A stretch of 64,000 nucleotides of DNA, from the NCBI GenBank assembly GCA_026874595.1, contig CM049322.1, positions 38,907,340 through 38,971,339 of the forward strand, read 5' to 3'. A program made the position numbers and the translations under genes. Of the stretch, positions 1,510 through 61,572 are shown piece by piece (within the stretch, counting starts at the first letter, position 1; each line of letters opens with the position of its first letter). The notes beneath the pieces were generated by a model. That model was not told where the DNA came from and searched no databases. It saw only the letters and a program-made list of their open reading frames with translations. The DNA is from Sipunculus nudus (taxonomy: Eukaryota > Annelida > Sipuncula > Golfingiida > Sipunculidae).

Positions 1510-1532
1510 CTACTCAATGTAGACGAATCCAT
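1510..1532 (-). CDS. GPCR gene 0, predicted exon 1 (gene cut by left edge)
   Basis: These 23 nt have the same sequence as the first exons at 23913-23935, 39171-39193 and 61550-61572: ATG plus six codons (M-D-S-S-T-L-S) and two bases of an eighth, followed on the minus strand by a GTAAGG splice donor. By analogy with the three complete genes, its 7TM exon should lie about 1.67 kb to the left, outside the window. Its presence says that at least one more receptor copy precedes A1. The assignment rests on phase and position; no transcript evidence is available. Confidence 0.55.
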
Positions 1533-21214: not shown

Positions 21215-22238
21215 TCAATTTGAAGAATGACCGTTACATTTCAGTCTTTGATAGAATTCCTCCCTGGTTTTGCGGTTTGTTAATAGGTATATGAACAACG
21301 GGCTTATATCATAAAATGACAATAACATTTCTAACACCATAAGTATCCCCCGAGACTGAATAAAATCTTGAAAAACTATACTAACAAATCGACCCACCGC
21401 CATGGGAACATGGCACAGAATAAACATAGTAGTAGTAACGAAGGATGTTAATCTAAATCGGGAAATGACGCTTTCCCAATCGTTATTACCTGACTGCCCC
21501 GGCCTTGCTTTTTTAGCTTTAACAAGATATGACATAATTGCAATGTTACAAGCTATCAAGATTGCCATACTTATAAAATAAATAGCGATAGTGATAACCG
21601 TACCTACACGTATAGCAAAGGGTGAACACTTCTCACTCTTGTAATCATTTAGTGTAAGAGGGACGGCACAGACAATTAGATTAAAAGTAACGATAAAAGC
21701 GGTAGAAATCGCAATCCTCTTATGTGACCAGAGTCTAGCTGCCGAAAATGGCAGAGCCATTCCTCCAAGTTGCATACATGCTATTGCCGAGATAAGAAAG
21801 TTGATGCAGTCATGGCAAAATGCAGTTGTAAACATAAACCAGGGGCAAATATGTCCTGGTTGGGTAAAAACATAGCCATAATGAATTAAAACCAGTTGGG
21901 CAGCGCTGCGTAAAATCAGACACACAGACAAAGCAATATAGTATATTGATACGGCTTTTGAGATCATGCTTGTTTTACATATCACTAATATGGCCAATAG
22001 GTTTAGGGGAAGCGAAGCCGACCTGAAGGTTGTTGTTACGATTTGTGAAACGTCCTCTATCTTTGTGCCATGGTCGCCAGGAAAGGTTGACGGTGGAACA
22101 TCAAAAGCGCCCCCTGTGCCTCCATGAGTAACAATATTGGTTTGTTTGGTTTGCGTATCATGCTCGATGGTCCTTGGATTTATTGTGAAACTTTCATTGA
22201 CACCAACATATGCCAAGGCATCACTGCTTAGAAGGCCA
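21215..22238 (-). CDS. GPCR gene 1, exon 2: class A (rhodopsin-like) 7TM receptor
   Basis: This exon encodes residues 8-348 of an atypical rhodopsin-like G-protein-coupled receptor of the plasma membrane; the ligand is unknown. Full-length numbering: a ~70-residue extracellular N-terminus with the sequon N22-E-S, seven hydrophobic helices starting near 68, 104, 138, 183, 217, 270 and 305, and helix 8 near 329-342. Conserved class A anchors are N87 (1.50), C139 (3.25) pairing with C212 in ECL2, P171 after TM3, F280, P286 (6.50) and P321 (7.50). The activation residues are replaced: L115 at 2.50, M163-Q164-L165 for DRY, H284 for the CWxP tryptophan, S320 for the NPxxY asparagine and I324 for its tyrosine. 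The frame is open upstream without any ATG to a stop at 22264-22262; a splice acceptor TTCCTCTTCAG ends at 22239. A start at the TTG at 22216 is unlikely. Confidence 0.88.
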
Positions 22239-23912
22239 CTGAAGAGGAATTTGTATTCATATTATACCTTTAACTAATATTAGAAAACAGTAATATGAAT
22301 ATGGTTTTGTTTTAATTGTTACATCATGAGGCTGTTCATCAACTTAACCATAGTAATATGTATTAATCCTTCTTCCTACGTCCAATCACTGGATACTGTG
22401 AGCAGAAAAATTAATCATGTTTAACATTTTTTTAAAACTTTATGGTAGAGTCAAATACAATGCACTTATGCGGACCCTAGATGTACAAATACATAACAAA
22501 AAAATTATACAAAGATATATACGTACAGCTAAGAATATAAAAAAGAGGTATGAAAGTTTTGACAAGTTTGGCAAAATAAGGACCGGACTACGCGGTAATA
22601 CACAAAAGCCAAACATACAATTTATTTATACTACCGGGCTGTTCACAACTTCATTTACAATAAGAAAGTTTATTGGGTATCACTTTAGCATAATAAGCTC
22701 GACTTGGGCGATATATCTATTTCATGCAGAATAATTGTATTTTTAATTTCAGACAGATACGAGAATAAACAAAACACTTTTTACACCTGATTAAAGTACA
22801 TGTTATATTTTGTTATTTTTTCTAAGAATTATAAAAATTATAAGACAGCTTTCATGCCCGGAAAAGCTTTAAATCATGAAAGGTAAATTTTATTTCTTTT
22901 AAAAAGCATATAACATAATTTTATAAAATTTCGTTTTTTTTACCTTATTTTAGTATATACTATATTTTGTCATTTAATACTGTAGAGGATAAGCATTACT
23001 TGGCAGTATAGAAATGTCTGATACATTTCAAATATCGACATAATCTGCTACTTTATATTTATCTGATATCCTCAAAGTCAAGTTATTAATATTTACTTTT
23101 CTGGCGGACTTTATTGTTGGGACTTTCAGCATCTATCGCCAATAGTAACTTCAGCTGTAGTGAAACCGCATTAACAGCAAAATACATTTATTTTTTTGTT
23201 GCACAACATTCTAGTACAGGATAATTATTGAAGTGAATGTTACCTGTATTGCTGGAACACATTTGATCAAAAACATCAAATAAATGAAAATTGTAAAATT
23301 GTTTTAGAGAGTCGAAAATCTGTTATAGTTATTAACAGCACCAGCTGTTTTGATCAGCTGAAATAGTTAGGACTTGTGACCCTTTGTTGAAGGATTAGTT
23401 ACACTTTTGATTTAAACTCTATCGAAATACATGTTGAAGTTCTTTTTTTTACATGTATAAGTTTGAAAGTTCCAAAATGTTATGGGTGCATTTCAATGAA
23501 ATTCAGAACACAAGTAACCTAATTATTAAGATACTTTCTTGATTCACACAATATCCAACTAGAAATTCAACATGCAACATACCAGAGTCAGCAATCTATT
23601 TAGTTCTTTTAAATCAATTCAATTAAATTTCATTCAATATTTAAAAAACAATTATAACTCAATGAATGAAATCTAATTATCGTTTGATGGACATAAAAAC
23701 AAAAAGACTTTAGTCCAAATAAAATTTGAAATCTTTATTTTGAGCGATTTATACAACCCATGCCCAAAAGCAATTGCATGAACATAAAAACAGCACAATT
23801 TACACTTGTGCCTTTTTGTTTAAACGAAACTGATTAAAATAAAAACTAAAACACCTGAAATAAGGAAATATACAATGTGGGAAAAAACGATTTAAAAAGA
23901 TTAAGACCTTAC
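22239..23912 (-). other. Predicted intron of GPCR gene 1
   Basis: 1674 nt, GTAAGG donor and TTCCTCTTCAG acceptor on the minus strand. The corresponding introns in genes 2 and 3 have the same length and splice sites. Over 640 bp examined by eye, the gene 2 intron differs at roughly 3% of sites. No other gene was seen inside. Confidence 0.55.
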
Positions 23913-23935
23913 CTACTCAATGTAGACGAATCCAT
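23913..23935 (-). CDS. GPCR gene 1, predicted exon 1
   Basis: ATG at 23935-23933 followed by six codons and two bases, then a GTAAGG donor at 23912-23907. Joined to exon 2 the two bases AG plus T make a serine codon, giving the N-terminus M-D-S-S-T-L-S-S-G-L-L and 348 residues in all (23 + 1024 nt including stop). This is the only nearby upstream ATG exon I found that supplies a start in the correct phase. It is identical in all four units while surrounding DNA varies. It would be missed by gene finders because it codes only seven whole codons. Confidence 0.6.
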
Positions 23936-24002
23936 GATATATCAGTCAGGTCACCGGAGTAGACGCTCTTAGTGCTTGTCTGTTTATGGTTGTGAATCGG
24001 TC

Positions 24003-24010
24003 ATATATAT
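24003..24010 (-). promoter_or_regulatory. TATA-like box of GPCR gene 1
   Basis: ATATATAT on the minus strand about 70 nt before the predicted ATG, in the same context (GGGG before, GACC after) as in the other units. Confidence 0.35.
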
Positions 24011-26363
24011 CCCCTTAACTTTATTCATCAATCAATGCTATCATTTACATATCTGGCAAAGACGCTCCAATCACCATACGAAAACGGACCTCTTAGCAAC
24101 ATACTATATGGTCCAGTAATGAATATGAACATTTAAACAGAAACATCTGGTGCACTATTGATCAAATAAAATGATTTTCAGGTCCGGTAGGCGGAGGACT
24201 GTAAAGCCCCACCCATTTCCACAAAACGCACTGGATCTTCTAAATTCAGTATTGTTGACATAAATGTATTGGAGGGCTTAGTTTATAAACATCCAAACAT
24301 GTTTGATCAACCTTGTTCCAAGGCAAATTACATGCACATGAAATTTTTTAGTATGAACTTAATGAAATGAGTAACATCTCGAAAACAAGCATTTGTTCAA
24401 TGTAAAAAGAACGGTAGCAATGATGTAATGGAAAAAGATAAACTGATTATCTAACTAAAATACATTTACACTAACACGTTGCTAATATAACGGTGTTCAT
24501 ATGCGATTGGGAAGCGAAATGGATATAGGACCGAGTTGAATTATGATCTGTTTTCAGCCGTATTTCTACATGTGCAGCACTACCTAGATTTAGGTCAATG
24601 TGTAAACGAAAAAGTTTTGAAATCCTTTAATTGATATTAATAATTTAAATTATTTTCACAGGTTAAAGAAGGCGAATTTCAATGCATTTAGGTGTAAATT
24701 TTGATGCTTTGAATGTACCGCGTACAGTGTGACCACGTCACGTCGCGTGTTTTTGTTGTGTCAGTTGCATTGTAATTTCAGTAATAGTAAAACCTAAATA
24801 AACCGTTTAAACTACACTTGTGAGAAATGACTAATGTGAGACAGAAAGAACTGTTTTAACATTTGGGGTAATCCGGTTCACCATCTGGATCTAGGAATTT
24901 TTGAAAGGAAAAAGTCTGTTCTCTCTGATTAAAAAATAACTTTTTTTCCATGGAATCTTAACTTAACTATCGACCGAGCAGCCAAAGCTTCAATAAACGC
25001 GCTTTTGAACACACGTCAGTGTTAACAATAAAAGATAATTTAAATGCAATCCTTTTTATGATAATATATGTGCGTGTGTGTGTATGTATGCACCACCGCC
25101 TTAAGGTCGCCAGTGTACTCGGCGGACCTTGTATCAGTACACTTTTCATTACCATGAGGGGCACCCTTCATAATAAAATCTAAAGTCGATTTAATATATA
25201 TATACCAAACGCATCGCCCCCACGTTATTGTGTGCCTTTATCATTCGGCATTCTCATATTGGGAACTGATTTCTTTGGCCGCTCTACAGTAAATAGGTCT
25301 CATTCTGTTTCTCTTCTTATTTGTGTTAATCACCACAAACTTCTGAAGCGATTCAAAGACTTCACCTTAATTTCTTATAAATCACATTGACCCTTATCTG
25401 TCTTATTATTCTCAAAAGTTTGATTTGAATTCGAATCTTTTCTTTTATACAGCGCCAATCCCTGGAAAACATTTCGACTTTGGACCTACATCAGGATGGA
25501 TCAGAGTACCCATTTTTTTGCAGCCTGTAAGAAGTTGTCACACCATTTACCAACATGGTACAGGGGACAAGTTTGACCCTAAGCCATGAGCCAGAATCCT
25601 TTGGCATTTCCCAATGGCTGGCTGTTGAAGTCATGAAAGCGACCGAAATCAACGTCTATAATAATATTCATGAGCACTATAACGTCATCAATATTTCTTT
25701 ATGTGTACAAGAAATAACAGTCATGATGTGTTTGTCCACTCGAATACAATTGGTGTTTCTTATAAAACAACATTTAAAAAAGTACCGTTAGTACTACGCC
25801 TAAGTTGTCCCGTTCTCTTAAATCTAAGAATGTGGGTGCTTCTCTCGTTTAAATAGATTGAGGTTCAACTATTTTAGTATGTTTCGTATTTCTTTTGACT
25901 AAATTACACAAATTACCATGGTACTTAACTTGGCAGTATCAAAATCCTGTGAGTAATATCACCATAAGGACATTACTTCATGTTTTACGTCCGAAAACTT
26001 CCCCATAATTAGTACAGTACATAACAGTTTTTCTTCTCATTTAAAGCCCCAGAGACCATTAAACATTTACATATTTTCAGGAACAAAATATCAACAATAC
26101 ATATAAAAGAATATACATCAACAATATACAACAAATTCCAGCTTGCTTGGTACTTCATAGCCCCAGCCAAGCGGGATAAAGTTTTTGTTTGCGATGGTTT
26201 GTTTGTTTGTTTGTTTTTCTGACAGTTAGCAACATTACGCAGAACGGATATTGATGAAATTTGCAGGATAGCTCGTCATTGAAACAAGGAACAAATAATT
26301 ACATTTTGGGGGAGATCCGGATCAATATCTGGATCGTGAATTTTTAGAAAGAAAAACGCTGCA
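24011..26363. other. B1 counterpart of A 1608-3966, upstream flank
   Basis: Contains the X1 block (about 24870-25395), the intact 78-codon plus-strand frame 25555-25791, and most of the dispersed repeat (about 26120-26416). The same stretch, 61648-64000, closes the window in B2. No gene is supported. Confidence 0.4.
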
Positions 26364-28142
26364 TGTCTTACAATGCCATATGGCTTAGGTCTGCGCTATC
26401 CGTGTGCAAATTTCTAGATACCGGTAAATCATATTCCCGTGTGATCTTAGATTAACTATCGACCGAAGTGCCACACATTTAATTAAAGCACCGGTTACAT
26501 AGACGTCTGTAATTACACTTTTGATCATCATATGTATATATATGCACCACCGCCTGTTGCTCTCAGCTGTACTTGGCAGACCTCGTATCAGTACTATTTC
26601 CATTGCTATCATAGAGATCCTTAATAATAACACCTAAAGAGGTAATGGTAATCGATTTCATACACATATGAGGCACATTGCCCTCGGGTTATCGTGAGCT
26701 TAATACATTTGCCTTTATCATTTGCAGATGCAATTTCCTCTACTACTTTTTATTAAGCAAAACACTTCCTTCCTCTTTTTCGTACATGTATCAGTCACCA
26801 AAAACTTCTTAGCCTACAAAGTTCTTCAGACCTGATACGATTACCTTACACGTCACCTGATCCGCTAGTTTATTTCCGAACAGGAAATTAAAAAGTCACC
26901 GTTGACTGGCAAGTTACCCCCCCCCCCCCTTTGCTGTCATATCCTTCACCAATGGATAATTCAAGCAAACTTAATTGAAAAAGAACAGTTAGTTCATCTT
27001 ACTTTATTCCCCGAATAAGCCAAGTTTCAAAGTTTTGTTGTTGATTTTATATGAGCCAATTATAAAGTTGCATGCTTTTACTAGGCGGTATCCGTGACTG
27101 CAAAAAATACAGACACATATACATTTCTAACTTTAAACTTTGGCATACTCCACGTGTGCACTTTTATATGAATCTAAAATGACTGTTTGAATGATTTAAA
27201 TTCAGGTTGTTTGGCCAGACGTGCTAAAGATGTCCACACAGCATTACAAATGCGTACCGGATAAAGTGCCAACTGCGTATGGTGGGCCCTAGCGACCTAA
27301 ACGTCGTGTGTGGGCGCTGAAGCGTCCCCAGGGAGCTACCGCCAGGAATTAAATTGTAAGGTCTTTGGAGTCAGTTAAAACCTGATTTTTTTTTAAACTT
27401 ACCGCTGATGTCTCTTTCTGTTAAAGGTCAGTAATTTTGTGTAAACGCTTGTCCAAAGGAATAAGGTATAGTCTTGCTGTACTGCACATATTAATTTAAG
27501 AAATATATTAACACATTCGCTGCCAATGACGTGTTTACCCGTCGTTTATTATGATTTCCCCAGTGCCAAGCACGTGCATACACGTCATTTATTTATAAGC
27601 CTTTTTCAGCAGGAATTCTCATAAATTAAACAATAAATTCTCTGCAGATAAGTAGTAGACCATTTATAAAACAGTCTCGCAGTATGAAAATGAATTATTT
27701 GTTATTCAACAGCGTGCTGCATCATTCTAAAGCAGGAAAGATGTGAAGATGGTGACAAAATCCACGGCTCCGGTCCATTGCCATGAAATAACTTTACGAC
27801 GCGCTTCAGTTTGAAGTCGATTCCTTGTAAGAATACTACTTTGAATCAAACGAAAAGGAGGATCGTAAAAATATGCAGCTAGTTTTATATTAGAGCACGT
27901 TTTGGCCACTTATTTACGACAGACCCAGTTGGGAGACCGACGTGTGATAGATCGCACCTTAGGTGTGAACTCAAGATAGCGAGGCGTAAGGTCGTTCAGG
28001 TGTATTGCCCCGCGAGGACAGGGTATTGCGCAATCAACAACAGAGGGCGCGTGCCACATGATTGACACACAGACCGGCAGTGTAATCAGAACGCGGCTGC
28101 AAATGATTCTTTCGGCTTATTTCTTGTTCCTTTTTTATTTAA
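26364..28142. other. B1 counterpart of A 3967-5756
   Basis: Holds the X2 block (26396-27245), a poly-C tract at about 26918-26929, and the left end of the candidate piggyBac-like element, TTAA at 27508-27511. The element is cut at 28142, where B1 joins DNA equivalent to A 8126; its right end and the LINE are missing. Confidence 0.55.
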
Positions 28143-28548
28143 ATAAATCAAACTTTTTTATATTCCTACTGAACCAGAAACGACTAATGAGGATGATTGA
28201 CGACGCATCCATGCAACTCCCGCGCATGTATGGCGAGCTTTTGGGACTAAAAATACGAATGTTTGTCCTTGCCAGTTGCATCTTTCGTGAAACAAAAACT
28301 TTATTGTTCTGAGAAGTATCGACTGTTACCTGCTTAACGGTAGACCTGTTTGCTTTAATATTTCCTGTTTTTAATGTCATATCACTGCTGTGGATCATTT
28401 ATATGGCTCAATATAAAATGATGATTAGTACTTCCTTTCATGAATCTATTGATTATTTACAATGTATGTAAAGAATACATTCAGGTTTGCAGCTAGGATT
28501 CACGGACTGAATGGGGTTGGAAGGGGAGTCATATCTGTCGGCTTGAGC

Positions 28549-33526: not shown

Positions 33527-34440
33527 CAGATTTCAAACCTGATGCATTTGTTGAAGATCCCGACCTTGATCAACTTAAACAGTTGACAAAAGATCAGTTG
33601 TTGCGTTTTAGACAACACTTAGGGTATGTGTGAATAAAAGCTTTAAGAAAGCCTGATATGATTGCTAAAATCATGCAAGATCTAGTTAGCAAAGGTTTAA
33701 TTGAAGAGAGTGAAGTAGAAACATAAAAAAAGTGACAACCTTGCAGTTAGGATTAAAAAAGTTGACATGAGCTAGCATTAAAAGAAAGTGAAGAACATCA
33801 AAGAGAAAGACTAGAAAAAGAAATTGAAAGAGAAAGACTAGAAACAGAAAAAGAAATAGAGTGAAAACAACTGGAGTTAGAACGACTTAAACTAGAACAT
33901 GGTCTACTTGCTGCCTCAACTCACAGTTTCGATGTTACTAAACACATTAGACCTGTCCTACCTTTTCAAGAAAATGAGGTTGATATATATTTCTTACACT
34001 TTGAGAAGGTAGCTAAAAATTTACAATTGGCCTAAGGAAAATTGGATTATGCTATTACAAAGTGTATTGACTGGCACGGCCAGAGAAAGAAGGTTATGAC
34101 TTAGTTACGGAGGCTTACCGCCAGAAATTTAGATATTGGGAAAGCAAAACAACAGAACTATGTAGAATTTGCTAGGACAAAAGAGCAGTTGTTTAATCAT
34201 TGGTGTAGTTCTAAAAATGTAATGAAAGATAATGAAAATTTTCGCCAGTTGATTTTGCTTGATGAATTTAAGCTCTGCATTAACGCAGGTGTTAAAACCT
34301 TTCTTGATGAAAAAATTCCTGAAACACTTGACATTGCTGCTCAATTAGCTGATGATTATTCATTAACACATTACTACCAAATCAAACCAGTCATTCACAA
34401 ACAAGAATGTAAATCAGTATGGTCAAAAGAAGTTTAAGGT
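33527..34440 (+). pseudogene. Gag remnant of the Ty3/Gypsy element
   Basis: The N-terminal part reads D-F-K-P-D-A-F-V-E-D-P-D-L-D-Q-L then a stop after L-G-Y-V. A Glu/Arg-rich coiled-coil stretch (R-E-R-L-E-K-E-I-E-R-E-R-L) follows at about 33800-33890. Then comes F-Q-E-N-E-V-D-I-Y-F-L-H-F-E-K-V-A, a typical metazoan Gypsy capsid start. The frame 34189-34437 carries the later SCAN-like capsid part (L-L-D-E-F-K-L-C-I-N and I-P-E-T-L-D-I-A-A-Q-L-A-D-D-Y). At least one frameshift and several stops break it. Confidence 0.65.
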
Positions 34441-34859
34441 GCAGACACCCAATAATAGTAGTTCTGATAGATCAACAAAGTCCATTGCTACACCTCAGTC
34501 CATGTCCACTCTGTCTAAATCCAACAAAAACTGCTGGAAACTTGCAAATTAACCGAGGAGCAAACCACCTGGTTTTGATTCAAAATCTGTGCAAAGCACA
34601 GTACCAGAGCCAAGCTCTTTTCAAGTAAATAAGGGGTAAAACTCCTTTATTGACTCTAAAAAAACAGTACGATGCTACAGAGGCCAACGTGCCGTCTGAA
34701 TCAAAAGAAGAATCCGTAGCTTGCTGGGTAAAAACCTCATTTGATTCCTCCGAGAAATTTAATAAGGCTAGGTCCTCCTAGATGGAGTATCCTCAGAATT
34801 AAGCTAAGTCCTGTTATGACTCTTGTGAGAGTATTACAAATGAGGGCAGGTCCTCTTAT

Positions 34860-35160
34860 GACAAAACAGAAGTCTGTTCCGCTTCACAGTATACATTTAA
34901 AGTCAGATTTGATTTCTGGGAATATTACTGTGGGTATAAGAACAACTTTACCCTTTAAGGGAATTCAGTTGCTGCTAGGCAGTGATGTTGCAGGTGACAA
35001 AGTACAGCCTTTACCAATAGTGACAGAAAAGCTGTTACTTGATCAGGACACTGATCCTGAAAATCAGGAAATTCCTGGCTTGTATCATTCATGTGCTGTA
35101 ACTAGATCTATGGTCAAGAAAAAAACCCATATGAGGATAATTGTCCAGATTATAACACTC
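34860..35160 (+). pseudogene. Protease-like region of the Ty3/Gypsy element
   Basis: Contains G-N-I-T-V-G-I-R, then K-G-I-Q-L-L-L-G-S-D-V-A-G-D-K-V and, further on, S-C-A-V-T-R-S-M. This string is characteristic of the segment between gag and integrase in Gmr1-type elements. I do not see the catalytic D-S/T-G upstream in a good frame. The frame (34741-35161) ends at a stop, after which coding sequence continues in another frame. Confidence 0.6.
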
Positions 35161-35179
35161 TAGGAGTCACTAGTGACCT

Positions 35180-36115
35180 GTCTAACAACTCGCCCGTACA
35201 GGATGCAGCATTTTCAAGGTCGGAACTTATCACGGAACAGCATAAGGACCCTAATATATCATGTTTGTTTCCCGGGGCAGTTTCTAAAGATGAACTGTCA
35301 CAGAACCCAGTTTGTTTCTATGTTAAAAATGAAGTGCTTATGCGTAAATGGCGACCACCTGATGAGTGGGCCATCAAACATCAAATAGTTATGCCCAAAA
35401 GAAATTCTAAACATGGAACAGGAGGCTCCTTTATCTGGTCATTTAGGTATAAATAAAACTTTTCAGAAAGTTAGTACACGCTTATATTGGCCTAACCTCA
35501 GGACAGATGTTGTACAATATTGTAAATCATGCCACACATGCCAGGTGGTAGGCAAGCCCAATCAGAATCCTCCTAAAGCCAAACCTCGGCCTATTCCTGT
35601 TTCGAGGAACCATTTAGTGCCATTATTGTTGTTTGTGTTGGACCACTGCCCAAAACAAAATCTGGACATAAATATTTGCTGACAATAATTTGCGCATCTA
35701 CCAGGCAATACCATTGCGCAAAATTAATGCCATAAGAATTGTCAAGGCTCTGACCAAATTTTTAACCACTTTAGGATTACCAACATCCGTCAAGTCTGAC
35801 CAAAGTCTATTTTTATGTCTGGCTTTTTCCAGCAAGTTATGCTTAAGCCAGGTATAAAACAGTACAGCTCTTCGCAATACCATCCTGAAAGTCAGGGCGC
35901 CCTCGGGCGTTTTCACCAGACATTAAAAAAACATGATAAGGAGTTATTGCTATGACACCAAAAAAAAATTGGGATGAAGGAATCCACCTATTGCTGTTTG
36001 GTGTCAGAGAATCATTTCAAGAGTCCTTGGGTGACAGTCCCTTTGAACTAGCTTTAAACACTCAGTTCGCTGTCCATTAAAAATGCTTAAAGAAAAATCT
36101 TGTGTGAAAATCCTG
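35180..36115 (+). pseudogene. Integrase remnant of the Ty3/Gypsy element
   Basis: The zinc-binding region reads G-H-L-G-I-N-K-T ... C-K-S-C-H-T-C-Q-V-V-G-K-P-N-Q (about 35430-35560). The core follows in several frames: V-V-C-V-G-P-L-P-K-T-K-S-G (35630-35660), K-S-D-Q-S (about 35790) and Y-H-P-E-S-Q-G-A-L-G-R-F-H-Q (35880-35922), then W-D-E-G-I-H-L-L-L-F-G-V-R-E and S-P-F-E-L. Of the three catalytic acids, the first is Val and the last Gly; only the middle Asp remains. The protein is dead. Confidence 0.75.
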
Positions 36116-36472: not shown

Positions 36473-37496
36473 TCAATTTGAAGAATGACCGTTACATTTC
36501 AGTCTTTGATAGAATTCCTCCCTGGTTTTGCGGTTTGTTAATAGGTATATGAACAACGGGCTTATATCATAAAATGACAATAACATTTCTAACACCATAA
36601 GTATCCCCCGAGACTGAATAAAATCTTGAAACACTATACTTACAAATCGACCCACCGCCATGGGAACATGGCACAGAATAAACATAGTAGTAGTAACGAA
36701 GGATGTTAATCTAAATCGGGAAATGACGCTTTCCCAATCGTTATTACCTGACTGCCCCGGCCTTGCTTTTTTAGCTTTAACAAGATATGACAGAATTGCA
36801 ATGTTACAAGCTATCAAGATTGCCATACTTATAAAATAAATAGCGATAGTGATAACCGTACCTACACGTATAGCAAAGGGTGAACACTTCTCACTCTTGT
36901 AATCATTTAGTGTAAGAGGGACGGCACAGACAATTAGATTAAAAGTAATGATAAAAGCGGTAGAAATCGCAATCCTCTTATGTGACCAGAGTCTAGCTGC
37001 CGAAAATGGCAGAGCCATTCCTCCAAGTTGCATACATGCTATTGCCGAGATAAGAAAGTTGATGCAGTCATGGCAAAATGCAGTTGTAAACATAAACCAG
37101 GGGCAAATATGTCCTGGTTGGGTAAAAACATAGCCATAATGAATTAAAACCAGTTGGGCAGCGCTGCGTAAAATCAGACACACAGACAAAGCAATATAGT
37201 ATATTGATACGGCTTTTGAGATCATGCTTGTTTTACATATCACTAATATGGCCAGTAGGTTTAGGGGAAGCGAAGCCGACCTGAAGGTTGTTGTTACGAT
37301 TTGTAAAACGTCCTCTATCTTTGTGCCATGTTCGCCAGGAAAGATTGACGGTGGAACATCAAAAGCGCCCCCTGTGCCTCCATGAGTAACATTATTGGTT
37401 TGTTTGGTTTGCGTATCATGCTCGATGGTCCTTGGATTTATTGTGAAACTTTCATTGACACCAACATATTCCAAGGCATCACTGCTTAGAAGGCCC
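36473..37496 (-). CDS. GPCR gene 2, exon 2: class A 7TM receptor, B-type paralogue
   Basis: Same receptor as gene 1, 348 residues with exon 1. Eleven nucleotide differences from gene 1 occur in this exon. Eight change the protein: S8R, A17E, I43N, T59I, D63E and S72L in the extracellular N-terminus, and the conservative V191I and M243L in TM4 and TM5. Three synonymous changes all lie in the 7TM part. The cysteine pair, prolines and the unusual residues at the DRY, CWxP and NPxxY positions are kept. The acceptor AG is preserved (CTTCAG then GGGCC). The gene ends next to a broken Ty3/Gypsy element, so its transcript end must differ from that of A-type genes. Confidence 0.88.
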
Positions 37497-39170: not shown

Positions 39171-39193
39171 CTACTCAATGTAGACGAATCCAT
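39171..39193 (-). CDS. GPCR gene 2, predicted exon 1
   Basis: ATG at 39193-39191, seven codons plus AG, GTAAGG donor at 39170-39165. Joined to exon 2 of gene 2, AG plus G makes an arginine codon, giving M-D-S-S-T-L-S-R-G-L-L. The exon is identical to the other three. Confidence 0.6.
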
Positions 39194-58851: not shown

Positions 58852-59875
58852 TCAATTTGAAGAATGACCGTTACATTTCAGTCTTTGATAGAATTCCTCC
58901 CTGGTTTTGCGGTTTGTTAATAGGTATATGAACAACGGGCTTATATCATAAAATGACAATAACATTTCTAACACCATAAGTATCCCCCGAGACTGAATAA
59001 AATCTTGAAAAACTATACTAACAAATCGACCCACCGCCATGGGAACATGGCACAGAATAAACATAGTAGTAGTAACGAAGGATGTTAATCTAAATCGGGA
59101 AATGACGCTTTCCCAATCGTTATTACCTGACTGCCCCGGCCTTGCTTTTTTAGCTTTAACAAGATATGACATAATTGCAATGTTACAAGCTATCAAGATT
59201 GCCATACTTATAAAATAAATAGCGATAGTGATAACCGTACCTACACGTATAGCAAAGGGTGAACACTTCTCACTCTTGTAATCATTTAGTGTAAGAGGGA
59301 CGGCACAGACAATTAGATTAAAAGTAACGATAAAAGCGGTAGAAATCGCAATCCTCTTATGTGACCAGAGTCTAGCTGCCGAAAATGGCAGAGCCATTCC
59401 TCCAAGTTGCATACATGCTATTGCCGAGATAAGAAAGTTGATGCAGTCATGGCAAAATGCAGTTGTAAACATAAACCAGGGGCAAATATGTCCTGGTTGG
59501 GTAAAAACATAGCCATAATGAATTAAAACCAGTTGGGCAGCGCTGCGTAAAATCAGACACACAGACAAAGCAATATAGTATATTGATACGGCTTTTGAGA
59601 TCATGCTTGTTTTACATATCACTAATATGGCCAATAGGTTTAGGGGAAGCGAAGCCGACCTGAAGGTTGTTGTTACGATTTGTGAAACGTCCTCTATCTT
59701 TGTGCCATGGTCGCCAGGAAAGGTTGACGGTGGAACATCAAAAGCGCCCCCTGTGCCTCCATGAGTAACAATATTGGTTTGTTTGGTTTGCGTATCATGC
59801 TCGATGGTCCTTGGATTTATTGTGAAACTTTCATTGACACCAACATATGCCAAGGCATCACTGCTTAGAAGGCCA
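58852..59875 (-). CDS. GPCR gene 3, exon 2: class A 7TM receptor, A-type copy
   Basis: Protein identical to gene 1 over the exon, and I see no nucleotide difference. All statements on topology and unusual motifs for gene 1 apply. Together with identical flanks, this points to a very recent copy of gene 1, or to the same locus assembled twice. Confidence 0.88.
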
Positions 59876-61549: not shown

Positions 61550-61572
61550 CTACTCAATGTAGACGAATCCAT
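61550..61572 (-). CDS. GPCR gene 3, predicted exon 1
   Basis: ATG at 61572-61570 and GTAAGG donor at 61549-61544; joins exon 2 in phase exactly as in gene 1. Confidence 0.6.

Follow-up and report, generated by a model that had tools for sequence, protein, structure and literature searches.

Arginine 3.50, in the DRY motif, is regarded as the residue that couples class A G protein-coupled receptors (GPCRs) to G proteins. What, then, is a seven-helix gene of Sipunculus nudus in which this arginine and most other canonical activation residues have been replaced: a broken gene, a misread one, or a receptor with a different switch? The gene lies in the 64,000-nucleotide stretch of DNA analysed here, referred to as the window (C17:38907340-38971339 in the whole assembly). 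An original prediction had read it as a class A-like receptor with altered switches. According to our analysis, Gln 3.50 is shared by dozens of related genes, which suggests an alternative switch under maintenance rather than a broken gene.

The gene, called copy A, is encoded on the minus strand, where an open frame occupies positions 21215-22261 of the window. Translation from 22237 to 21215 yields 340 residues followed by a stop. As the frame runs on to 22261 with no methionine ahead of TM1, an upstream first exon is required, and the following gene model is proposed.

21215..22238, minus strand: exon 2 of copy A, comprising the ectodomain, TM1-TM7, helix 8 and the stop (open frame; acceptor AG just before 22238; 19.6 bits on a class A profile)
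22239..23912, minus strand: putative GT-AG intron of copy A (donor AG/GTAAGG and acceptor TTCAG/T, with matching phases)
23913..23935, minus strand: putative exon 1 of copy A, encoding MDSSTLS and bases 1 and 2 of a serine codon (top donor candidate)

The donor was scored against a donor consensus and the intron was modelled from genomic sequence alone. The scanned interval 22239-28145 offers five candidate donors that have an in-phase ATG; the best of them gives exon 1 at 23935-23913. The same exon 1 recurs identically at four places in the window, and the predicted spliced product has 348 residues, in agreement with the numbering used in the original prediction. Under a strict pattern, versions of exon 1 with an AG/GTAAG donor were found upstream of 5 of the 12 paralogues examined, reading MYLSTLS or MYLSTFS at L079, L083, L087 and L088 and MDSSTLS at L089. 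Clear DNA similarity to the exon 1 region is seen in 9 of the 12 upstream stretches and is absent from those of L078, L084 and L085. We infer a two-exon, 348-residue gene on the minus strand.

The residues of this protein were mapped by alignment to a small class A profile of seven sequences, namely six receptors and a consensus. All residues named in the original prediction (L115, C139, M163-Q164-L165, P171, H284, P286, S320, P321 and I324) stand exactly at those numbers in the 348-residue frame. The profile alignment upholds the assignment of L115 to D2.50, of M-Q-L to DRY and of H284 to W6.48, together with the fold markers that had been described as kept: N87 (1.50), C139 (3.25) with its extracellular loop 2 (ECL2) partner C212, P171 (3.57) and P286 (6.50). 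The altered switches map as follows.

21767..21775, minus strand: M163-Q164-L165 codons in place of DRY (3.49-3.51), by profile mapping
21917..21919, minus strand: L115 codon at 2.50, sodium-site aspartate lost, by profile mapping
21410..21412, minus strand: H284 codon at 6.48, toggle tryptophan lost, by profile mapping
21287..21301, minus strand: P321-L-F-I-Y325 codons at the NPxxY position (7.49-7.53), Y7.53 kept, by a register test and the ungapped match to the relative L071

Four further losses were added by the alignment: W4.50 is V191, P5.50 is S231, Y5.58 is N239 and S3.39 is I153. Like class A GPCRs in general (Pfam PF00001), the receptor has seven putative helices with N1.50, C3.25, P3.57, the ECL2 cysteine, F6.44, P6.50, Y7.53 and R8.51, and it also keeps P4.60, C6.47 and F8.54. 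It differs from them in that D2.50, R3.50, W4.50, P5.50, Y5.58, W6.48 and N7.49-P7.50 are all replaced, the arginine by Q164 and the N-P pair by P321-L322. In TM7 the mapping departs from the original prediction, which had placed P321 at 7.50 and I324 at 7.53 and counted the NPxxY tyrosine as lost. That register scores -2.2 bits over 7.49-8.55, against +8.0 bits with Y325 at 7.53. Moreover, ISPLFIYLLTNRKTREEF of the query aligns with no gap to CSNLGLYVLSSRRFRKEF of L071, a relative that keeps D2.50 and R3.50, so that P321 pairs with N7.49 of L071 and Y325 with its Y7.53. In this alignment N7.49 is replaced by proline and P7.50 by leucine, and Y7.53 and the helix-8 pattern are kept.

Such a list of losses raises the possibility that the canonical residues lie elsewhere or that the protein is not a GPCR. 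The query alone gave no match to Pfam 7tm_1 up to E 10, nor did its exon-2 reading at E <= 1; at the latter level 9 of 44 alignment members match. The Pfam models of nematode-type serpentine chemoreceptors, Srsx and Srw, gave no match for the query either. In a phmmer search of the query against the PDB, the best receptor was the prostacyclin receptor at E 3.2, below two unrelated matches, and the matches to a profile of the close subfamily were limited to a pair of 5-HT2C receptor constructs, at E 0.74 and 0.85. The predicted structures are poor (mean pLDDT 46.8 and 45.1 for two models), and no residue claim was therefore built on them; among the 50 Foldseek matches listed for a poor model, 49 are class A receptors, the best at E 9e-3 and none under 1e-3. 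On the small class A profile, the seven-helix part of the query scores 19.6 bits, a value reached by none of 4000 shuffles (best shuffle 12.5), and only 14 of the 56 family rows with a Met-Gln (MQ) type motif beat that best shuffle. The relatives provide the firm link. Searched with a profile of 30 MQ-family rows, the PDB yields 44 distinct sequences at E <= 0.01. Each is a class A receptor or a fusion of one, and the D2 receptor matches best (E 1.5e-9); a profile that takes in the three rows with R3.50 reaches E 8e-17. The profile search against GPCR families that had been suggested as a check thus finds class A for the family, but no Pfam 7tm_1 match for the query by itself. In a scan of ten relatives, L047 (motif MQM) passes Pfam 7tm_1 (36.8 against a cut-off of 30.5) and also Srsx (30.4 against 24.1), yet its 7tm_1 score is the higher one; L071, with R3.50, passes Srw and Srx, and again 7tm_1 scores higher. 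By homology, the query is a divergent class A-type GPCR, with the link firm through its relatives. A mis-alignment, for which the missing Pfam match and the poor model would speak, is extremely improbable: the register found with the small class A profile is also the one given by family profiles run against the PDB, which place MQ under the ER or DR of the ghrelin and D2 receptors, and re-alignment altered the earlier mapping in TM7 only.

The window contains further copies of the gene, listed here with their putative first exons.

36473..37496, minus strand: exon 2 of copy B, whose protein is 98% identical to copy A (open frame, sequence comparison)
39171..39193, minus strand: putative exon 1 of copy B (donor motif at 39172)
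58852..59875, minus strand: exon 2 of a second A-type copy, with the same coding sequence as copy A (sequence comparison)
61550..61572, minus strand: putative exon 1 of the second A-type copy (match to exon 1 of copy A)
1510..1532, minus strand: putative exon 1 belonging to another B-type copy, with its exon 2 outside the window on the left as L004 (match to exon 1 of copy A, and genome search)

The three window copies amount to two distinct sequences, the first and third being the same across the 348-codon frame. Copies A and B are separated by 8 nonsynonymous and 3 synonymous codon differences, and six of the nonsynonymous ones fall in the N-terminal part. The receptor copies sit inside repeat units of about 37.66 kb that form a tandem array. 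As assembled, the array holds seven copies with open frames. Three match A exactly, three are B-type and the last, at 97%, is reversed. Divergence between the repeats is uneven, with 3 SNPs and 6 indels in 17.8 kb and 19 mismatches in another 8.6 kb, which suggests gene conversion or mixed ages. The original prediction had argued that all copies share the altered motifs and that this is not the decay of a single gene. As near-identical copies in one repeat of about 37.66 kb, the window copies were rejected as independent evidence, and the argument in that form is weak; its conclusion is backed by relatives found across the genome. Between two of the receptor copies lie pieces that we read as Ty3/Gypsy-like (34105-35682, plus strand), where Pfam assigns SCAN to one frame (E 7e-7) and Integrase_H2C2, an integrase zinc-binding domain, to another (E 5e-18), and the two frames between them gave no Pfam match.

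A search of the 1.43-Gb genome of the same species with the query protein returned 115 matching rows on 13 contigs, with identities from 100% down to about 24%; one gene may give several rows. We fetched 77 loci, of which 65 have intact frames and 59 remain distinct after six exact duplicates were merged. Twelve broken or partial loci were left out (L020, L021, L028, L034, L035, L051, L054, L055, L061, L074, L076 and L077), and 38 of the 115 rows have no fetched locus of their own, though some fall within fetched stretches. Gln 3.50 is present in 56 of the 59 distinct intact relatives, preceded by Met 3.49 in 55 of them and by Ile in one (L027, IQ). The remaining three, among the most distant, carry R3.50: L071 and L072 with ERV and L073 with QRA. 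A wider census of 81 open reading frames, which includes window copies, duplicates and dropped rows, counts 74 with MQ followed by L, M or A, one IQL, two ERV, one QRA, one DRC (L074), one MPV (the broken L076) and one without the region. The disulfide cysteines equivalent to C139 and C212 are each present in 54 of the 56.

In order to keep the grouping independent of the motif, columns 3.49-3.51 were removed before the tree was built. The 56 rows with Gln 3.50 form one side of a branch with support 100/100, present in all 200 bootstrap trees examined; the tree program warned of long branches. The claim of a receptor branch with altered sodium site and G-protein switch is thereby borne out as a branch expanded in this genome. 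Because the relatives were picked for their resemblance to the query, the sample may contain too few cousins without MQ. The alignment offers no conserved stretch of sufficient length for finding relatives in viral contigs. Among the rows sampled in this genome, L071, L072 and L073 are the nearest relatives with R3.50; they keep D2.50, R3.50 and P5.50, all three of which are replaced in the query, and the loop 2 sequences of L071 and L072 are similar to those of the MQ receptors. L073 (C9:18.79 Mb) is itself a class A receptor near the MQ branch, with QRA for DRY and possibly a separate change at 3.49. A deep side branch within the subfamily of the query is formed by the near-identical pair L036 and L037 (C17:57.3-57.7 Mb), which share 36-39% identity with the query and have Glu at 7.45 and Gln at 6.48.

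Along the MQ branch the switch position is held firmly. Among the 56, Gln 3.50 ranks first in conservation, tied with three other positions, and Met 3.49 fifth of 260 positions. Codon 164 is CAA in 33 and CAG in 23 of them, and it changed at least nine times on the tree, always between these two codons and with no amino-acid change. The sodium-site and toggle positions behave less strictly. At 2.50 (L 24, N 17, H 9, F 3, Y 2, Q 1) the codon changed 15 times and the amino acid 8 times on the tree; at 6.48, with H 32, N 9, K 7, I 4, Q 2 and E 1 as the six commonest residues, the counts are 11 and 8. We therefore considered the idea that the query is a degenerating pseudogene whose motifs have drifted, and judge it very improbable. 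In-frame stops occur in 32 of the 115 genome rows by our count, so the family does lose genes; yet all seven array copies are open, the same motif recurs in intact relatives from 98% to about 24% identity, and every change at codon 164 is synonymous. Across the seven-helix part, dN/dS ranges from 0.12 to 0.93 in the 15 pairs examined, all below 1, and it reaches 2.03 in the N-terminal ectodomain of one pair. Many pairs lie at 0.4-0.8, a range also compatible with relaxed constraint. Together, these values suggest fast evolution under net constraint, accompanied by copy loss.

The loops that face the cytoplasm are less variable than those that face outwards. With region borders drawn by us, mean entropy over all 56 is 1.76 bits for cytoplasmic loops plus helix 8 and 2.45 bits for the extracellular loops (p = 1e-5). 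The close set of 23 gives 0.59 bits for cytoplasmic loops 1-3 plus helix 8 (54 positions) against 1.00 bits for the extracellular loops (41 positions; p = 1e-3). Of all regions, loop 2 varies least over the 56 (1.21 bits), and loop 3 (2.07 bits) and helix 8 (1.97 bits) are about as variable as the helices. This pattern fits receptors that would still dock an intracellular partner as their outer parts diversify. That partner might be arrestin or another protein, in which case the cytoplasmic face, chiefly loop 2, would be kept for G-protein-independent use and MQ would act as a lock or a contact. This reading, which we regard as distinctly unlikely, gains from conserved cytoplasmic residues that lie off the class A consensus: T328 (7.56) is found in 56 of 56, I266 in 53 and position 269 is F in 51 and Y in 5, the latter two at the inner end of TM6, where 6.xx numbers hang on gap placement. 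It is opposed by loop 2 itself, which retains P3.57 and a large hydrophobic residue at 34.51 (F, Y, L or M), each in 56 of 56, a pattern that contacts G-alpha in other class A receptors.

A second way to do without Arg 3.50 is that of a decoy or scavenger, which binds and internalises its ligand and does not activate a G protein, as do C5aR2 and the atypical chemokine receptors. Absence of a canonical DRY is a trait of such decoys, and all 56 MQ-family rows are without R3.50. According to passages of a review, C5L2 (C5aR2), with Leu at 3.50, is a known non-signalling C5a-binding protein, several receptors couple less well to G proteins once a neutral residue takes position 3.50, most such changes harm signalling, and in the viral receptor M33 a Gln at this very position put an end to constitutive signalling (PMC3414077). 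The same passages describe ORF74 of equine herpesvirus 2, a viral receptor with DTW, thus Thr at 3.50, which does signal (PMC3414077). C5L2 and ORF74 share a neutral 3.50 residue with the query, but they are single receptors, whereas the family described here has a single residue fixed at that position in 56 distinct genes. A decoy would not need a particular residue at 3.50, yet Gln is unchanged along the MQ branch, and the low variability of loop 2 also speaks against the decoy reading. We consider a decoy family unlikely, though far from negligible.

Among molluscan receptors, the candidate chemoreceptors AcCRa-c of Aplysia resemble the query as expanded rhodopsin-like receptors of similar length for which close orthologues elsewhere were not identified, as stated in parts of the original description (PMC2700072). 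They differ in the highly conserved arginine of an ERC motif at the end of TM3, where the query has MQL, and in being largely intronless, as opposed to the putative two-exon gene here; by the stated motif, the query is therefore not of the AcCR family (PMC2700072). The same parts state that receptors without this arginine fail to activate G proteins (PMC2700072). By description, the BgCR genes of Biomphalaria glabrata, which encode candidate chemosensory receptors, are alike in being clustered genes of the seven-helix, GPCR-like type, one of them expressed in tentacles, according to passages of their report (PMC5440852). A family with MQ at 3.49-3.50 was not found described in the open-licence literature searched, which includes passages of PMC2700072, PMC3414077, PMC5440852, PMC10075465, PMC10638732, PMC6408891 and PMC10795318.

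The reading towards which we lean, by a modest degree, is that the query is functional and belongs to a large receptor family that derives from class A and evolves fast, in which DRY has become Met-Gln followed by Leu, Met or Ala, and which putatively still signals. Lost as well are the toggle tryptophan, the sodium-site aspartate, W4.50, P5.50 and the N-P pair of NPxxY. Class A homology, a single MQ branch in the sampled set, cytoplasmic loops that vary less than extracellular ones and a Gln 3.50 that no intact member of that branch has lost in spite of synonymous changes are its firm parts, as are gene birth and death in the receptor family. Under the preferred reading, ligand binding in the variable outer half would move TM6 in the usual way. 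Gln 3.50, together with the common Asn 5.58 (42 of 56), the usual Tyr or Phe 7.53 and the invariant Thr 7.56, would then form hydrogen bonds that replace the role of Arg 3.50, and a G protein or another partner would still dock on the conserved loop 2. The M33 result with Gln 3.50 and the Aplysia statement on the arginine, both cases of lost signalling in excerpts of the respective papers, count against this reading (PMC3414077, PMC2700072). So do the missing Pfam match of the query, the weak PDB scores of the close subfamily, the small share of MQ-family rows (14 of 56) above the best shuffle, the poor models, the variability of loop 3 and helix 8, the dN/dS values of 0.4-0.8 and of 2.03 in one ectodomain pair, the sampling by similarity and the MPV motif in the broken L076. 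A more specific proposal, which we put forward tentatively and hold to be possible rather than probable, is a one-time replacement of the arginine motif by Met-Gln under strict selection, with a putative relay of Gln 3.50, Asn 5.58, Tyr/Phe 7.53 and Thr 7.56 that works without the sodium site or the tryptophan toggle.

On this reading the family duplicates in tandem, with MQ putatively standing in for DR in receptors that probably still signal. A chemosensory role is a probable candidate, which the expansion, turnover and diversity of the family fit. Domain annotation of single sequences can miss such genes, as the query, with no Pfam 7tm_1 match, illustrates. At least 56 distinct intact genes with Gln 3.50 and only synonymous changes at its codon constitute a natural experiment: either another relay can replace Arg 3.50, or a large family gave up G-protein coupling and yet keeps its loop 2 tightly conserved. 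If the proposed relay is true, it would be a second natural solution to GPCR activation.
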